A DNA stretch of 64,000 nucleotides. It comes from Acrocarpospora phusangensis (lineage in GTDB: Bacteria > Actinomycetota > Actinomycetes > Streptosporangiales > Streptosporangiaceae). Where the stretch lies: assembly GCF_016862995.1 (NCBI RefSeq), contig NZ_BOOA01000047.1, positions 1 to 64,000 on the forward strand, in the 5' to 3' direction. A model generated the notes under the pieces. That model did no database searches, had not been told where the DNA came from, and saw only the letters and a program-made list of their open reading frames with translations. This document shows positions 54,988-60,704 of this stretch, piece by piece; position 1 is the first letter of the stretch, and every line of letters starts with the position of its first letter. The translations under genes were made by a program, and so were the position numbers.

Positions 54988-55014
54988 TGTGAAGTTCAGC
55001 TAGCTATGGAGAGC

Positions 55015-55566
55015 TCAGACCTCGTCGTGGTCGTCGTGGTCGTCGTGGTCGTGGTCCCAGTCGTAGCCGTAGTCGTGGTCCCAGGCGTCGTAGATGGTCT
55101 TCCACTGGCCGCACTTGAAGGGCGCGCCGCCCCACTTGTTGATCTGGCAGACCTGGACCTGGAGCTTGGCGATGTCGTGCTTGGTGAAGTGGAAGGGCTT
55201 GTCCCAGCCGCAGGCCTTGTAGCCCCAGACGTGGTCCCAGTCCCACTTGCCGCCGTCCCAGTCGTAGGACCGGAACTTCACGTAGCCGCACTTGCTGTTG
55301 CGGTGGTCCTTGTCGTACACCTTGCCGCCGACCTCGACCTTGTTGTCCTCGTGGTGGTCGTACTCGACCTCGATCCAGCCCTTGGCCTTGGCCTTGTGGT
55401 TCCAGGACCAGTACGAGCCCCAGTCGTCGTCGTAGTCCCAGTCCGCGGAGGCGATCTTGGCGGAGGTGGTGGGGGCGGCGGAGGCGGGGGTGGAGGTGAG
55501 ACCGATCGCACCGAAGGCGAGGATCGCGGTCGCGGCGGTGGCGCCGAGAATCTGACGGACGCGCAT
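55015..55566 (-). CDS. Secreted Asp/His/Trp-rich protein with acidic His tail
   Basis: The 183-residue protein has a signal peptide (MRVRQILGATAATAILAFGAIGL, cleavage near ASAA, residue 30) and a mature part rich in Trp, Asp, His, Lys and Tyr, for example DWDYDDDWGSYWSWNH and the passage DGGKWDWDHVWGYKACGW. Four cysteines could form two disulfides. The last residues alternate Asp and His (WDHDHDDHDDHDEV), a likely metal-binding tail made by GTC-rich repeats in the DNA at 55021-55075. I recognise no named domain. GCAGGAG lies before ATG 55566. A role in metal or polymer binding outside the cell is possible. Confidence 0.78.
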   Translation of the reverse strand: MRVRQILGATAATAILAFGAIGLTSTPASAAPTTSAKIASADWDYDDDWGSYWSWNHKAKAKGWIEVEYDHHEDNKVEVGGKVYDKDHRNSKCGYVKFRSYDWDGGKWDWDHVWGYKACGWDKPFHFTKHDIAKLQVQVCQINKWGGAPFKCGQWKTIYDAWDHDYGYDWDHDHDDHDDHDEV

Positions 55567-55699
55567 GAGGATGCTCCTGCTTTGTGATCTGAGGACGATC
55601 GCCCCGTTCCGGGGTTGGCTCATTTGTAGGCGCGCCCGCCTGCAGGCCACTTACAGATTCCTTACCAGGGCCCTGCAAGACACCCTCTGACCAGCGAAA

Positions 55700-55727
55700 A
55701 GGCCCCTTCCTGAGGGGGAAGGGACCT
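55700..55727 (-). terminator. Minus-strand intrinsic terminator-like hairpin
   Basis: AGGCCCCTTCC and GGAAGGGACCT form an 11-bp stem with one mismatch and a 6-nt loop. Read on the minus strand it is followed by TTTT, the form of an intrinsic terminator. It lies about 130 bp upstream of the Asp/His/Trp-rich gene and would stop leftward transcription from the SARP region. Confidence 0.6.
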
Positions 55728-55741
55728 CACGTCGAGCACCT

Positions 55742-55786
55742 ATGTGAACGAGCCATGACCGCCCCCGCAGGGGTCATGACTCACAT
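55742..55786. repeat. Nested inverted repeat between divergent genes
   Basis: CATGACC (55754-55760) pairs with GGTCATG (55772-55778), and the outer ATGTGA (55742-55747) pairs with TCACAT (near 55781-55786). It could be a stem-loop in a leader or a binding site for a dimeric regulator. Confidence 0.6.
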
Positions 55787-55813
55787 GACTACAGCGTGGA
55801 CCGGCCCGCTCAA

Positions 55814-55835
55814 CGACCGATCAACGCCCGATCAA
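55814..55835. promoter_or_regulatory. Two tandem 11-bp direct repeats upstream of the SARP gene (candidate SARP site)
   Basis: CGACCGATCAA (55814-55824) and CGCCCGATCAA (55825-55835) follow each other directly. SARP regulators bind direct repeats with an 11-bp period near the -35 region. The site is 117-138 bp before ATG 55952, so the protein may control its own gene. A matching site lies after the gene at 59173-59194. Confidence 0.6.
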
Positions 55836-55951
55836 TAAGGTGAATGACAACCAACGGCGCATTTAACGAGAGGAACCCGCACTACTGGACAGCCCCAGTG
55901 GGATCTATCATTTGGTCGAATAACATGCCAATAGGGCAAAGAGGATGGCGA

Positions 55952-58942
55952 ATGGCTGGTCACGGTGCCGAGGACGGGCTGCGCTTCGCCGTGCTCGGAC
56001 CAGTCCGGGCCTGGCGGGACACCGAAGCCGGCGAGGTCGAACTGGACCTGGGCACCCCCTTGCAACGTTCCATCCTGGCGATGTTGCTGCTGCGCGAGGG
56101 CCGGGCGGTCACGCCGTCCGAAATGATCGACGCGATCTGGGGCGAGGACGCGCCCCCGCGCGCGCTGGGCGCCCTGCGGACCTACGTGTCCCGGTTGCGT
56201 ACCGTGCTGGAGCCGGACCGCTCGCCGCGTACGCCGCCGGAGTTGCTCACCTCGGTCGGCCGCGGCTACGCGCTGCGCTTATCCCCCGGCGCGCTCGACC
56301 TGGCCGTCTTCGAGCGCGCCGCGGCCGACGCGGACACCTCGCACCGCAAGGGTGAGACCGCGGCGGCGGCCGAGTCGCTGCGTACCGCGCTCGCCCTGTG
56401 GACCGGGGAGCCGCTGGCCGGCGCCGTCGGCCCGTACGCCGACCACCAGCGGGACCGCCTGATCGAACGGCGGCTCGGCGTGGTCGAGACCCTGATGGAG
56501 TACGACCTGGCGCTCGGCCGCCACGCCGGCGTCGTCTCCGAGCTGATCGCCCTCACCGCCGAGCACCCGCTGCGCGAGCAGCTGCGCGCCCAGCTGATGC
56601 TGGCCTACTACCGCAACGGCAGGGCCGCCGAAGCCCTGGCCGTCTTCAGCGAGACCCGGCACGCCCTCATCGAGGAACTCGGCATCGAGCCCAGCGCCGA
56701 ACTCGCCGGCCTGCACCGCCGCATCCTCGCCGCCGACCCCGCTCTCACCATCACCAAAACCCCCGATCCGGTACGGCTCGCGCCCCCCGAGGAACCCGAA
56801 CTCCTCATCGAGATGCCCAAACCGGCCCAGCTCCCGGCGGCGGTCACCGACTTCACCGGCCGCAAGCAGCTGGTCAACCGCATGCTCATGCTGCTCAGCA
56901 GCGGCGACGGCGTGCCCGTGGTGGCCATGTCCGGCATCGGCGGCGTCGGCAAGACCACCCTCGCGGTGCACGTCGCCCACCTCGTGAACGACCTGTTCCC
57001 GGACGGCCAGCTCTACGCCGACCTGCGCGGCTACGGCCAGGAGCCGACCCCGCCGGAGACCGCCCTGGTGGCGTTCCTGCGCGCGCTCGGCATCCCGGTG
57101 GACGTCATCCCCGACAGCCTGGCCGACCGGGCCGCGCTGTTCCGGTCGCTGCTGGCCGACCGGCGCATGCTGGTGCTGCTGGACAACGCGCGCGACGCCG
57201 ACCAGGTCGAGCACCTGCTGCCGGGCTCGGCGGGCTGCGCGGCCATCATCACCAGCCGGGGCAAACTCGCCGACCTGCCCTCGGCCCGGCTCATCGACCT
57301 GGACGTGATGGAGCCCGACGAGGCGCTCTCGCTGTTCGGCGCGGTCGCCGGGGTCGAGCGGGTCTCCGCCGAGCGCGCGCCCGCCATGGACGTGGTCGCC
57401 GCCTGCGGGTTCCTGCCGCTGGCGGTACGGATCGTGGCGGCCAGGCTGGCGGCCAGGCCGTCCTGGACGGTCGCCTCGCTGGTGCCCCGGCTGGCCGACG
57501 AGCGCCGCCGCCTGGACGAGATGAAGATCGGCAACCTGGCGGTCTCGGCCACCTTCGCCCTCGGGTACGGCCAGCTCGACCCCCGGCAGATGCGCGCGTT
57601 CCGGCTGCTGTCCCTGCCGAACGGCTCGGACATCTCGGTGTTCGCGGCGGCGGCCGTCCTGGATCTGAGCCATGTCGAGACCGAGGACGTGCTGGAGTCC
57701 CTGGTGGACGCCAGCCTGCTGGAGGCGCCCGCGCCCGGCCGGTACCGCTTCCACGACCTGCTGAAGCTGTTCGCGCGACGGCAGTCGGAGGACACCGACG
57801 AGCCGGCCACGCAGGCGCGGGCGCTGCGGCGGCTGCTCGGGTTCTACCTGGCGACCGCGCGGTCGGCGCACCGGCTGGCCTACGAGGGCAGCGCCGTGGC
57901 CGACCAGCTCCAGGTCATCGGCCATCGCGGGCACTCCTTCACCTCCGCCGACGACTCGGTGGCGTGGCTGGCCGCCGAGGGGGAGGCGCTGTTCGCCGTC
58001 CTCGGCCAAGCCGCCGCCACCGCCACCACCGCCACCGCCTCCGCCGAGGACCTGCTGCCCGCCGCCGACCTGCTGGTGGCCATGGAGCCGCTGCTGGAGA
58101 CCGGCGCGAGCGGCCGCGAGTTCGACCAGCGCACCCGCGTGCTCATCGACGCCGCCCGGCAGGCCGGCGACCCGCGCAGCGAACTGCGCTGCCGGTACGT
58201 GCTGGGCCGCGTCCTGTTCGGGGCCAACCGCATGGCCGAGGCCGAGGAGCAGTTCCTGACCGCCCGATCGCTGGCCGAGGAGTGCGGCGACTCCATCGTG
58301 CTGGGGGAGACCTGCAACGCGCTCGCCGTCGTGGCCGGCCGGCAGCGCCGCCACACCGAGGCGCTCCAGTGGTTCGACCGCGCCGGGAAGATCTACCGCG
58401 AGGTCGGCAACGTGGCCGGCGAGGCGCTCGTGCTGAGCTACTCGGCCCGCGACCACTTCGGCCTGGGCCGCCCCGAGGACGCGATCGCCGTCTCCGAGCA
58501 GGGCCTGGCCATCTTCACCGAACTCGGCAGCGGCGGCGGCGTGGCCCGCGCCCGCTACCACCTGGGCATCGTGCTCTCCGCGGTCGGACGGCTCAACGAG
58601 GCCGTCGTGCACCACGCCGAGTGCCTGGACTATTTCAGGGCCAGCAACCAGCGCGTCTGGGAACAGCGCGTCTGCGTACGCCTGGCCACCACGTTCATCG
58701 CCGCCGGGCGCTACCAGGACGCCGCGCGCCACGCCGAGCAGGCCCTCATCGTCAGCCGCGAGATCACCCACCCGTACGGCGAGGCGCTGTCGCTGACCGC
58801 CCTCGGCAAGGCGCTGCGCGGTCTCGGCAGCACCACCCGGAGCACCGACGCCCTAACGAAGGCCCTCGACATCTTCACCCGGCTCGGCTCGCCCGAGGCC
58901 GACGACGTCCGCGCTCTCCTCGCCCAGAAGGTCGAAACCTAG
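55952..58942 (+). CDS. AfsR-type SARP regulator with BTAD, NB-ARC and TPR domains
   Basis: The 996-residue regulator resembles AfsR: an OmpR-like winged helix (about 10-100, FAVLGPVRAWRD to VGRGYALRL), the bacterial transcriptional activation domain (about 105-250), an NB-ARC ATPase with SGIGGVGKTTLA (about 330) and LVLLDNARDADQ (about 410), and a C-terminal TPR region (about 700-990). Such proteins activate secondary-metabolite or developmental genes. Codon 110 is a rare TTA leucine (56279-56281), which ties many SARPs to the bldA tRNA. ATG 55952 with GAGG upstream is preferred; the frame stays open to ATG 55844. No biosynthetic cluster is in the window. Confidence 0.9.
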   Translation: MAGHGAEDGLRFAVLGPVRAWRDTEAGEVELDLGTPLQRSILAMLLLREGRAVTPSEMIDAIWGEDAPPRALGALRTYVSRLRTVLEPDRSPRTPPELLTSVGRGYALRLSPGALDLAVFERAAADADTSHRKGETAAAAESLRTALALWTGEPLAGAVGPYADHQRDRLIERRLGVVETLMEYDLALGRHAGVVSELIALTAEHPLREQLRAQLMLAYYRNGRAAEALAVFSETRHALIEELGIEPSAELAGLHRRILAADPALTITKTPDPVRLAPPEEPELLIEMPKPAQLPAAVTDFTGRKQLVNRMLMLLSSGDGVPVVAMSGIGGVGKTTLAVHVAHLVNDLFPDGQLYADLRGYGQEPTPPETALVAFLRALGIPVDVIPDSLADRAALFRSLLADRRMLVLLDNARDADQVEHLLPGSAGCAAIITSRGKLADLPSARLIDLDVMEPDEALSLFGAVAGVERVSAERAPAMDVVAACGFLPLAVRIVAARLAARPSWTVASLVPRLADERRRLDEMKIGNLAVSATFALGYGQLDPRQMRAFRLLSLPNGSDISVFAAAAVLDLSHVETEDVLESLVDASLLEAPAPGRYRFHDLLKLFARRQSEDTDEPATQARALRRLLGFYLATARSAHRLAYEGSAVADQLQVIGHRGHSFTSADDSVAWLAAEGEALFAVLGQAAATATTATASAEDLLPAADLLVAMEPLLETGASGREFDQRTRVLIDAARQAGDPRSELRCRYVLGRVLFGANRMAEAEEQFLTARSLAEECGDSIVLGETCNALAVVAGRQRRHTEALQWFDRAGKIYREVGNVAGEALVLSYSARDHFGLGRPEDAIAVSEQGLAIFTELGSGGGVARARYHLGIVLSAVGRLNEAVVHHAECLDYFRASNQRVWEQRVCVRLATTFIAAGRYQDAARHAEQALIVSREITHPYGEALSLTALGKALRGLGSTTRSTDALTKALDIFTRLGSPEADDVRALLAQKVET

Positions 58943-59222
58943 TTCGTCGTCCAGGCGCGTCATCCGGACGTGATTGATCATCATGGCCTCCTGCGCGGAT
59001 GGGTGGTGGGCGCCCGGCCGGCCGTCAGCTCCCAATCGGCGCTTAGGGGGGCCCGGTCATCCGGAGCGCCTCATGACAGCTAGCCGCCTCACTACGACGA
59101 CCGGCCGGACTTGACATGGACCCCGAACCCCCCGGGTCCGTGCCCAGGCCCAGCCTCCCCGGCGCAGCTCAACGTCCGATCGCCGTCCGATTGCGGAGGC
59201 GACGGATTTGTTATGAGACCTG
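58943..59222. other. Intergenic region between convergent SARP and methyltransferase genes
   Basis: No gene is seen in the 280 bp. It contains the second pair of 11-bp direct repeats (59173-59194). A short minus-strand frame overlapping the SARP end lacks support. Confidence 0.5.
59173..59194. promoter_or_regulatory. Second pair of tandem 11-bp direct repeats (candidate SARP site)
   Basis: CGTCCGATCGC (59173-59183) and CGTCCGATTGC (59184-59194) follow each other. Together with the preceding GCTCAA they match the site upstream of the SARP gene at most positions. Both copies flank the SARP gene, but this one lies between two convergent gene ends. Confidence 0.55.
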
Positions 59223-60656
59223 TTACGAGAACTGGAAGTAGCCCTCGGCGATGAGGGCGCGGAGCGGGCCGGGGGCCAGGTTCTCCTCGCCGATGATGTC
59301 GCCGATCGCGCCCAGCAGCGGGCCCAGGCGCAGGTCGCCGTCGCAGACCCCGGCCAGGGCGGCCTCGACGGTGCCGACGGAGGCGGCGCGGCGCAGGCCC
59401 CGGGTCTGGCGGAGCACGATGCGGGTGGGGTCCTCGGCGCCGGGCGGGCCGACGCGTTCCTCCAGCACGCCCTCGCTCAGCTTGAGTGCCAGGTCGAGCA
59501 GGTCGTCGTCGGTCAGGCGGTGCGCGGCGGTGATGCCGGCGAGCACGTCGTCCAGGTAGGCGCCGACCGGGAGTTCCACCTGCTGGGAGAGTTCCTCGAC
59601 CCGGACGACCGGATCGAGGGTGCCCGAGTTGTGGACGGTGATCCAGCCGAAGCCGATGCCGACGACGTTCTGCGCGTCGAACCAGGCCAGCCACTCGTCG
59701 TACCGGTCGCGGTAGGCCGGGCTGCCCTGTTCGGCGGCGTCCCTGAGCCAGAGTTCGACGTATTCGGCCGGGTCCTGCGCGTCCCGCTGGACGGCCCAGC
59801 CGTCGCAGCCGGTCTCCGCCAGCCAGCCGCCGACCCGGTCCTGCCAGTCCTCGCCCTTGACGTGCAGCCAGTTGGCCAGGGCCTGGAAGTGGCCGCCGGG
59901 GTTGAGGTGGGCGGGGGCCTGCCGTACGAGTTCGTGGCAGAAGGCGTCGCCCTGGTAACCGGACTCGCGGTACGGGAAACGCCCGTTGGGCGAGATGACG
60001 AACGGGGGGTTGGAGACGATCAGGTCGAACCGCTCGTCGTGTACGGGGTCGTACATCGGGCCCTTGCGGGCATCCACGTCCTCGATGCCGGACAGGCCCC
60101 AGCTCAGCTGGGAGAGTTCGAGGGCGCGGCGGTTGACGTCGGTGGCGACGATGCGGTCGGCGCGCTCGGCCAGGTGCAGGACCTGGACGCCGCAGCCGGT
60201 GCCGAGGTCCAGGGCGCGCTCGACCGGGCGGCGGGTGATCAGCTGGGCCAGGTTGGCGGACGCGCCGCCCGCGCCGACGACGTGGTCGCGGCGGATGGCG
60301 GGGTCGCCGGGCCGTACCTTGCGGTCGGAGACGAGGTAGCCGCCGGTCTCCCAGGGTTGCACGTGGACGCTGGCCTGGACCGCGTCGCCGACCTTGACCA
60401 GGAGGCCGCACTGCACGAGTTCGCTGAGAGGGAGGTCGGCGGCGGCCGTACTGACCGGGACACCGAGCCACCAGAGCCGGATCAGCGCGGCGAGCGGGTC
60501 GACGTCCTTGGTGGCCCGCAGCGCGGGCACCAGCTCCTCCCGGGCGAGTGCCGCGGCGGCCACGTCACCCAGCCGCTCTCGCACCCCGTCGATCGTGTAG
60601 CCGGTCTCATCGAACCGGGCCCGAAGCCGTCGCAGCAGGTCAGATGGAGCTTTCAC
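59223..60656 (-). CDS. SAM-dependent class I methyltransferase (HemK/RsmC-like, N-terminal extension)
   Basis: The 477-residue protein has an N-terminal helical domain (about 1-130), then a Rossmann methyltransferase with ALDLGTGCGVQVLHLA (about 143-158) and the catalytic SNPPFV (about 211-216), the N-methyltransferase motif of HemK, RsmC and related enzymes. A C-terminal region of about 150 residues follows. It is probably a modifier of rRNA, protein or glutamine side chains; the target is unknown. I use GTG 60656 because TAGATT lies 7 nt upstream (leaderless pattern); TTG 60665 would add three residues. Confidence 0.86.
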   Translation of the reverse strand: MKAPSDLLRRLRARFDETGYTIDGVRERLGDVAAAALAREELVPALRATKDVDPLAALIRLWWLGVPVSTAAADLPLSELVQCGLLVKVGDAVQASVHVQPWETGGYLVSDRKVRPGDPAIRRDHVVGAGGASANLAQLITRRPVERALDLGTGCGVQVLHLAERADRIVATDVNRRALELSQLSWGLSGIEDVDARKGPMYDPVHDERFDLIVSNPPFVISPNGRFPYRESGYQGDAFCHELVRQAPAHLNPGGHFQALANWLHVKGEDWQDRVGGWLAETGCDGWAVQRDAQDPAEYVELWLRDAAEQGSPAYRDRYDEWLAWFDAQNVVGIGFGWITVHNSGTLDPVVRVEELSQQVELPVGAYLDDVLAGITAAHRLTDDDLLDLALKLSEGVLEERVGPPGAEDPTRIVLRQTRGLRRAASVGTVEAALAGVCDGDLRLGPLLGAIGDIIGEENLAPGPLRALIAEGYFQFS

Positions 60657-60704
60657 GGGAAGCAATCTAGCGCCGCCCGCGCGCGATCAAACCAAACTCG
60701 CGGC

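Follow-up and report, generated by a model that had tools for sequence, protein, structure and literature searches.

What do two matching pairs of 11-bp direct repeats do on either side of a single regulator gene? The question is posed by an afsR-like gene (afsR below) in the first 64,000 nucleotides of contig NZ_BOOA01000047.1 of Acrocarpospora phusangensis, the whole stretch of DNA analysed here and called the window. An earlier note took the pairs for binding sites of the Streptomyces antibiotic regulatory protein (SARP)/AfsR type and suggested autoregulation, possibly with a small RNA (sRNA) or antisense transcript. Our analysis gives a different direction to both sites. The repeat pairs are probably AfsR boxes that would drive two minus-strand transcripts, one on each flank of afsR, and the locus would form an inverted AfsR-AfsS-like module with another open reading frame (ORF). 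What we computed is the conservation, the promoter register, the covariation of the main RNA helices and their strand, and the coding character of the N-terminal codons of the ORF; binding and activation by AfsR at the boxes are what we infer.

Repeat pairs and promoter register

The repeats lie where the earlier note had placed them, CGACCGATCAA-CGCCCGATCAA at 55814-55835 and CGTCCGATCGC-CGTCCGATTGC at 59173-59194, with GCTCAA ahead of each. A scan of the whole genome (9,110,166 bases) for the exact pattern CGNCCGATNNNCGNCCGAT returned two matches, both flanking afsR, and the reversed-pattern control returned none; the two sites are therefore no accident. Chance repeats are ruled out by this count together with the conservation across loci described below. 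The scan confined to the window, with up to two mismatches, is uninformative, because its four matches (2.42 expected) were reached by 22 of 100 shuffles. Among 60 genomes, A. phusangensis and 59 relatives, the exact pattern occurs at 17 places in 15 genomes (control, two). Two of the 15 places outside the A. phusangensis genome (loci L005 and L012) precede the orthologous gene and 13 lie elsewhere, so the pattern as first written is not the conserved unit. The unit was therefore found by comparing loci: TCAACG, which reads CGTTGA on the minus strand, recurs with an 11-bp period in orthologous loci across the family Streptosporangiaceae.

According to the accessible part of PMC10936776, SARPs bind direct repeats with an 11-bp period, the 3' repeat standing at a fixed distance from the -10 element. 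The same text places the afs box at -40 to -19 as two 11-bp repeats with base contacts to T-38 and G-36 of the template strand, names C-40, T-38 and T-37 (non-template strand), T-35 (template strand) and T-27, and reports that a change of T-38 to A in S. coelicolor abolished AfsR binding. The repeats of the window resemble such boxes in their CGTTGA unit and their register, which agrees with the earlier note's assignment to the SARP/AfsR type. The upstream site has the layout of an afs-box promoter, with 11-bp repeats at -40 to -30 and -29 to -19, T-38, T-27 and a -10 element at -12 to -7.

Matches to afsR at E up to 1e-200 were found in 62 of 150 family genomes, and the loci were oriented before they were compared. 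Box counts cover 60 loci (L018-L077) except L075 and L076, and for the downstream box also except L077, which is cut off; loci below a score of 9/12 (5 of 57 downstream, 11 of 58 upstream) fall outside them, leaving 52 downstream and 47 upstream sites. The downstream box of L055, L060 and L073 lay outside the scanned stretch, though it was seen in a separate view. Alignment A1 holds 42 of 52 references. Read on the minus strand, the downstream columns (52/57 loci) show CGTTGA at -40 to -35 and at -29 to -24, with A-11 and T-7 in 51/52 sites each. When the sites were aligned on the promoter-proximal half-site, using the box alone, A-N3-T appeared at a single offset in 52/52 downstream and 34/47 upstream sites; other minus-direction offsets reached at most 4 and 8 sites, respectively, and plus-direction offsets at the downstream site at most 7/52.

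Written as one minus-strand pattern, CGTTGA-N5-CGTTGA-N11-nAnnnT, this promoter has 23 exact matches in 120 family genomes, distributed over 22 of them (control, none). Twenty of the 23 stand at the afsR locus, one of these (G078) being of the tandem kind. In the A. phusangensis genome only the upstream site matches exactly. The downstream one deviates by two mismatches, and at that tolerance the genome yields 23 matches against 9 in the control, mostly noise. In 80 named loci (the best 80 of 94, chosen by their afsR), the pattern within four substitutions is present downstream in 79 and upstream in 57. No promoter emerged when 55500-59500 was scanned for the sigma-70 consensus.

The register has a counterpart outside the family. 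Seven Streptomyces-type afsR loci (genus inferred; all from one other family) all carry CGTTCA-N5-(C/T)GTTTA-N12-A-N3-T, past afsR on its own strand and ahead of an afsS-like ORF (whole in five and begun in two of the 500-nt stretches). Because these loci show a matching box register before the afsS-like ORF, we read the box of the window's family as the same signal in the same register, reversed in direction.

Structured RNA, small ORF and predicted upstream transcript

Beyond the downstream box lies a conserved block of 142 positions, antisense to afsR in 80/80 named loci, that forms a structured RNA (model R1; Table 1). Fifty-three of 55 loci gave an RNA core, and R1 was built on 44 of these 53 after nine near-duplicates had been dropped and four ends lengthened by 4 nt. 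In the 44-core alignment 25 of 45 pairs change on both sides; the 139 such cells compare with 44.4 in shuffles, and none of 500 shuffles was as high. On the model-fitted alignment of the 80 named loci the figure is 24 of 38 pairs. The ratio of G-U to A-C combinations, counted on the minus strand, is 65:1 in P1, 42:12 in P2/P3 and 20:11 in P0, and these helices support the fit to that strand. An RNA read from the plus strand is disfavoured by the counts in P0-P3, not in P4.

R1 occurs in single copy in 61 of 150 family genomes, and 60 of the 61 are among the 62 with an afsR match. Across the class it was found in 11 of 296 genomes, all 11 within Streptosporangiaceae. In G009, which has no afsR match at the E cut-off, and in G165, whose listed match lies elsewhere, afsR adjoins the RNA all the same. 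Only G078 and G158 have afsR without the RNA, and both genes are of the distant kind (50-52% identity). None of the 4227 Rfam models matched at E up to 1 over 55300-59700 or at its gathering score over the window.

The RNA is followed by a small ORF that starts with GTG, TTG or ATG and has the N-terminus (V/L/M)INHV(R/W)MTRLDD. Mean entropy at codon positions 1, 2 and 3 is 0.34, 0.17 and 1.02 (codons 2-14, 71 distinct sequences), and the frame shows 264 synonymous changes against 109 that are not, compared with 60 against 313 in the opposite in-phase frame. Counted from the small-ORF start, the afsR stop lies a multiple of three nucleotides away in 51/51 loci, over 17 different lengths, and in 77/77 of the named loci, a set that overlaps with the first. 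The 77 comprise 73/73 plus L156, L163, L171 and L212, which have a variant second residue (linkers 45, 45, 45 and 171); by pattern, no small ORF is found in L152, L161 and L179 of the named loci. In L031 the extra bases sit past the afsR stop, where they are free of constraint by afsR. Third-position variation, together with the phase kept with afsR, indicates at the sequence level that the small ORF is coding; these two lines of evidence decided the matter.

At most loci the small ORF continues antisense into the 3' end of afsR. It stops before that end in L069, and G016 has both RNA and ORF ~3 kb away from afsR, with the same N-terminus and another C-terminus. The N-terminal 20 residues are therefore taken as the conserved core. 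Pfam had no match for two of the small-ORF proteins, nor NCBIfam for one; AfsS-type NTHVT/DAHAT-like repeats are absent from the ORF by inspection. In Streptosporangium sp. KLBMP 9127 (L055 and L183, the same genome) the small ORF contains a repetitive insertion that leaves the frame open, 221 aa in total. On the far side of the RNA, a gene for a methyltransferase with DUF7059 and MTS domains (59223-60665, minus strand in the window) follows in 49 of 60 loci, and it stays with the RNA in G016.

The earlier note had pointed to the gap between the convergent genes as a place for an unseen short transcription unit, and box register and conserved RNA do make a start there likely. Register and G-U counts predict, however, that this transcript runs along the minus strand and not into the methyltransferase gene. 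It would also be more than an sRNA, with a structured leader followed by a small, apparently coding ORF that overlaps the 3' end of afsR antisense.

Table 1 Predicted elements of the afsR locus, in window coordinates
Feature	Position	Strand	Details
Downstream AfsR-type box	59169..59185	-	CGGCGA 59185-59180 (degenerate, without T-38), N5, CGTTGA 59174-59169
Putative -10 GAGGCT	59152..59157	-	Predicted transcription start ~59145
Structured RNA	59010..59151	-	Model R1, 117.7 bits; P0 with G-rich loop; 15-bp P1 enclosing P2/P3; weak P4
Putative ribosome-binding site AGGAGG	58987..58992	-	Purine-rich stretch nearby in many relatives, by eye
Small ORF	58853..58981	-	MINHVRMTRLDDELGFDLL..., 42 aa; 90 nt antisense over afsR 3' end; another ATG at 58984
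AfsR-like regulator	55952..58942	+	996 aa; OmpR-type DNA-binding, BTAD, NB-ARC, TPR
Recurrent putative -10 of afsR, TATCAT	55906..55911	+	Stretch resembling GGATCTATCATTTGG in many orthologs, by eye
Upstream AfsR-type box	55810..55826	-	CGTTGA 55826-55821, N5, CGTTGA 55815-55810; weaker third half-site 55837-55832
Putative -10 CACGCT	55793..55798	-	11 nt past upstream box; predicted transcription start ~55786
Putative sRNA divergent from afsR	55693..55786	-	Hairpin 55750-55782; terminator-like site 55717-55703, CCTTTT tail

On the other flank, the transcript predicted to start at the upstream box runs away from afsR and is probably an sRNA of ~90 nt with a terminator at its end. Many upstream-box loci among those listed have a hairpin like CATGGCCCC..GGGGGCGGCCATG soon after the predicted start, its outer stem compensatory by eye only, and many then have a terminator-like hairpin; in the window, one terminator-like site was found against 0.7 expected in shuffles. 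A minus-strand gene at 55004-55567 is predicted to encode a secreted Asp/His/Trp-rich protein and is without a Pfam match. Its promoter side (~55630-55665) carries CTGTAAG/CTGCAGG-like units, which recur in relatives by eye and are possibly the box of another regulator.

Weighing the proposed inverted module against its alternatives

The regulator itself is encoded in a 1032-aa ORF with Trans_reg_C, BTAD, NB-ARC and TPR domains and matches the solved S. coelicolor AfsR over its full length (E 5e-247; query 8-994 against chain 23-991). Acrocarpospora species, with 89-90% identity, are its closest named relatives among the matches listed. The most likely start of the gene is 55952, codon 37 of that ORF, since L021 has an in-frame TGA 12 nt ahead of the corresponding ATG. 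The base-contacting residues T88 and R92 given in the accessible part of PMC10936776 are conserved in the alignment (numbering counted from W74); the backbone-contacting S46, Q48, S80, Q81 and K95 differ.

Several observations count against an inverted module under AfsR control, and we set them out here beside the competing explanations. The regulator scores 1061.8 bits against the NCBIfam AfsR equivalog (NF053617), its best family by far yet below the cut-off of 1430, and is for that reason labelled AfsR-like. The downstream box of the window has G at -38 in place of T, although its register, T-27 and -10 element fit. T-38 is present in 46/52 loci and missing in all five loci of the window's genus (L018-L022), a shared loss that weakens the case for the module; because the base is absent, the downstream promoter may be weak in the window. 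The upstream pattern is missing in 23 of the 80 named loci, including all 7 Herbidospora and all 11 Microbispora listed.

PhoP sites, too, are 11-bp direct repeats, and the boxes might belong to PhoP or some other regulator of the OmpR type, with AfsR a mere neighbour. A downstream box in the window without a base that AfsR needs would suit such a regulator, and the accessible part of PMC12096830 describes competition between PhoP and AfsR at the afsS promoter of S. coelicolor. A global regulator, however, would be expected to have many exact sites, whereas 20 of the 23 exact matches in the 120 genomes stand at the afsR locus and the A. phusangensis genome has one. The half-site also fits the AfsR contacts better than the PHO-box GTTCACC, no PHO-box search having been made. 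The site may be shared by PhoP and AfsR; that AfsR is only a bystander we consider improbable.

A second alternative keeps to autoregulation by AfsR through the upstream repeats; from the downstream pair, transcription would run on the plus strand, antisense to the methyltransferase gene. The upstream site does stand ahead of the gene, and SARPs bind such repeats. In 15 of 47 upstream sites, moreover, A-N3-T peaks at one plus-direction offset, within a further half-site (TCAACGCT). Against the plus strand stand the downstream plus-direction offsets, none of which exceeds 7/52, the preference of P1, P2/P3 and P0 for the minus strand, and the afs-box register, which fits on the minus strand. Simple autoregulation, as the earlier note had it, is not borne out at the upstream box: the activating register points away from afsR, and the putative afsR core promoter is ~80 bp off. 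At that distance a bound regulator could still influence afsR, so an effect of the upstream box on the gene is conceivable; the alternative as a whole is very unlikely.

Within the RNA, P4 contradicts the strand call with 2 G-U against 14 A-C and is weak, with 65.3% of its cells paired. A pseudoknot of the P0 loop GGGGG with CCCCC is possible; its five pairs can form in 95.4% of cells without covariation, and a sixth pair in 40.5%. L043 (G109) does not fit the pseudoknot, since its P0 hairpin differs in sequence and lacks the GGGGGG loop. In the small ORF, afsR constrains the C-terminal part, which is different in G016. R1 applied to the Streptomyces-type loci reached a best E of 0.11 or worse, and homology to the Streptomyces afsS leader is therefore not claimed.

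G+C-rich stems are common between convergent genes, and high G+C produces long antisense ORFs by chance. The explanation that makes the block no more than a bidirectional terminator or passive structured spacer, and puts the small ORF down to high G+C and the afsR frame, is nevertheless the least credible and very improbable: the stop counts of the six frames in the linker (1, 2, 5 and 1, 1, 2 over 378 codons) do not separate the frames and are weak coding evidence, but several helices covary within one architecture, the promoter keeps its register, third positions vary strongly in the N-terminal codons, the phase is kept with bases past the afsR stop, and RNA and ORF remain beside the methyltransferase gene even where they lie ~3 kb from afsR.

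In the inverted AfsR-AfsS-like module that we favour, active AfsR would bind both boxes, each of which spans -40 to -24 in a minus-strand promoter. As the box register matches that of the Streptomyces afsS promoter, bound AfsR would recruit RNA polymerase, giving two short minus-strand transcripts that flank afsR. The downstream transcript would carry a folded leader of ~140 nt ahead of the coding sequence for the small protein, whose 3' part would overlap the end of afsR antisense in most loci, and this cassette would take the place of afsS, convergent and with a different ORF. The leader most likely controls synthesis of the small protein, we infer, and the protein may have an AfsS-like role. 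A more far-reaching version is tentative and on the unlikely side: Streptosporangiaceae would possess a self-contained AfsR switch that includes a novel class of structured regulatory RNA and in which AfsR drives chiefly the two flanking transcripts, and a pseudoknotted leader senses a signal and gates synthesis of a novel small-protein family that replaces AfsS, perhaps with feedback on the TPR domain of AfsR or on afsR mRNA through the antisense overlap.

Comparison with AfsR-AfsS and other systems

Antibiotic production in Streptomyces has AfsR as a central switch, and Streptosporangiaceae include many antibiotic producers, among their genera Nonomuraea, Microbispora, Streptosporangium and Planomonospora. 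Having the module in a second design could help to separate the parts that are needed (box, leader RNA, small protein) from those that are incidental (orientation, AfsS sequence). The covariance model and the promoter pattern can be used on RNA-seq data from such genera.

Two published points fit the proposed mechanism by analogy. The accessible part of PMC4681348 reports an unexpected afsR-afsR2 (afsS) transcript in S. coelicolor, for which its authors consider a discrete function or riboswitching. That of PMC8914203 describes an intergenic unit in S. griseus with high RNA and ribosome-footprint signal and an AfsS homolog after afsR, and calls the mechanism of AfsS still unclear. Among the open-licence literature matches listed, none describes such an arrangement in Streptosporangiaceae.

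Ms1 and 6S-like RNAs are likewise structured intergenic RNAs in Streptosporangiaceae. Ms1 was set aside by synteny alone, its neighbours being a HAD hydrolase and an oxidoreductase in the accessible part of PMC9130861 and those of the present RNA being afsR and the DUF7059 methyltransferase gene. With SARP promoters in general, the locus shares the 11-bp direct repeats and the fixed distance of the 3' repeat from the -10 element; here, in contrast, the regulator and both boxes make up one compact locus, with few exact sites elsewhere.

The closest counterpart is the AfsR-afsS module of Streptomyces, which has the same regulator architecture and the same pair of 11-bp repeats, spanning -40 to -19, ahead of a weak -10 element. 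In the Streptomyces-type loci L214-L220, the stretch from the box to the afsS-like ORF has a recurrent hairpin with a GGGGGG run, P0-like by eye. The target of the Streptomyces module is tandem, whereas the present cassette is convergent, every copy found lying on the strand opposite to afsR; its ORF is without afsS-like repeats and lies mostly antisense over afsR. The locus also has the extra upstream box, directed away from the gene, and no exact box of this kind stands upstream in the seven Streptomyces-type loci. A distant family member, L076 (G158), has among the loci listed a tandem box of CGTTGA repeats, and its afsS-like ORF contains GFTGHAT-like repeats. As this lineage is tandem, both designs occur in the family. 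The arrangement is best read as a variant of the AfsR-AfsS module, with a newly seen RNA element and small-protein family, and in both forms the target lies directly downstream of afsR and includes a small protein.

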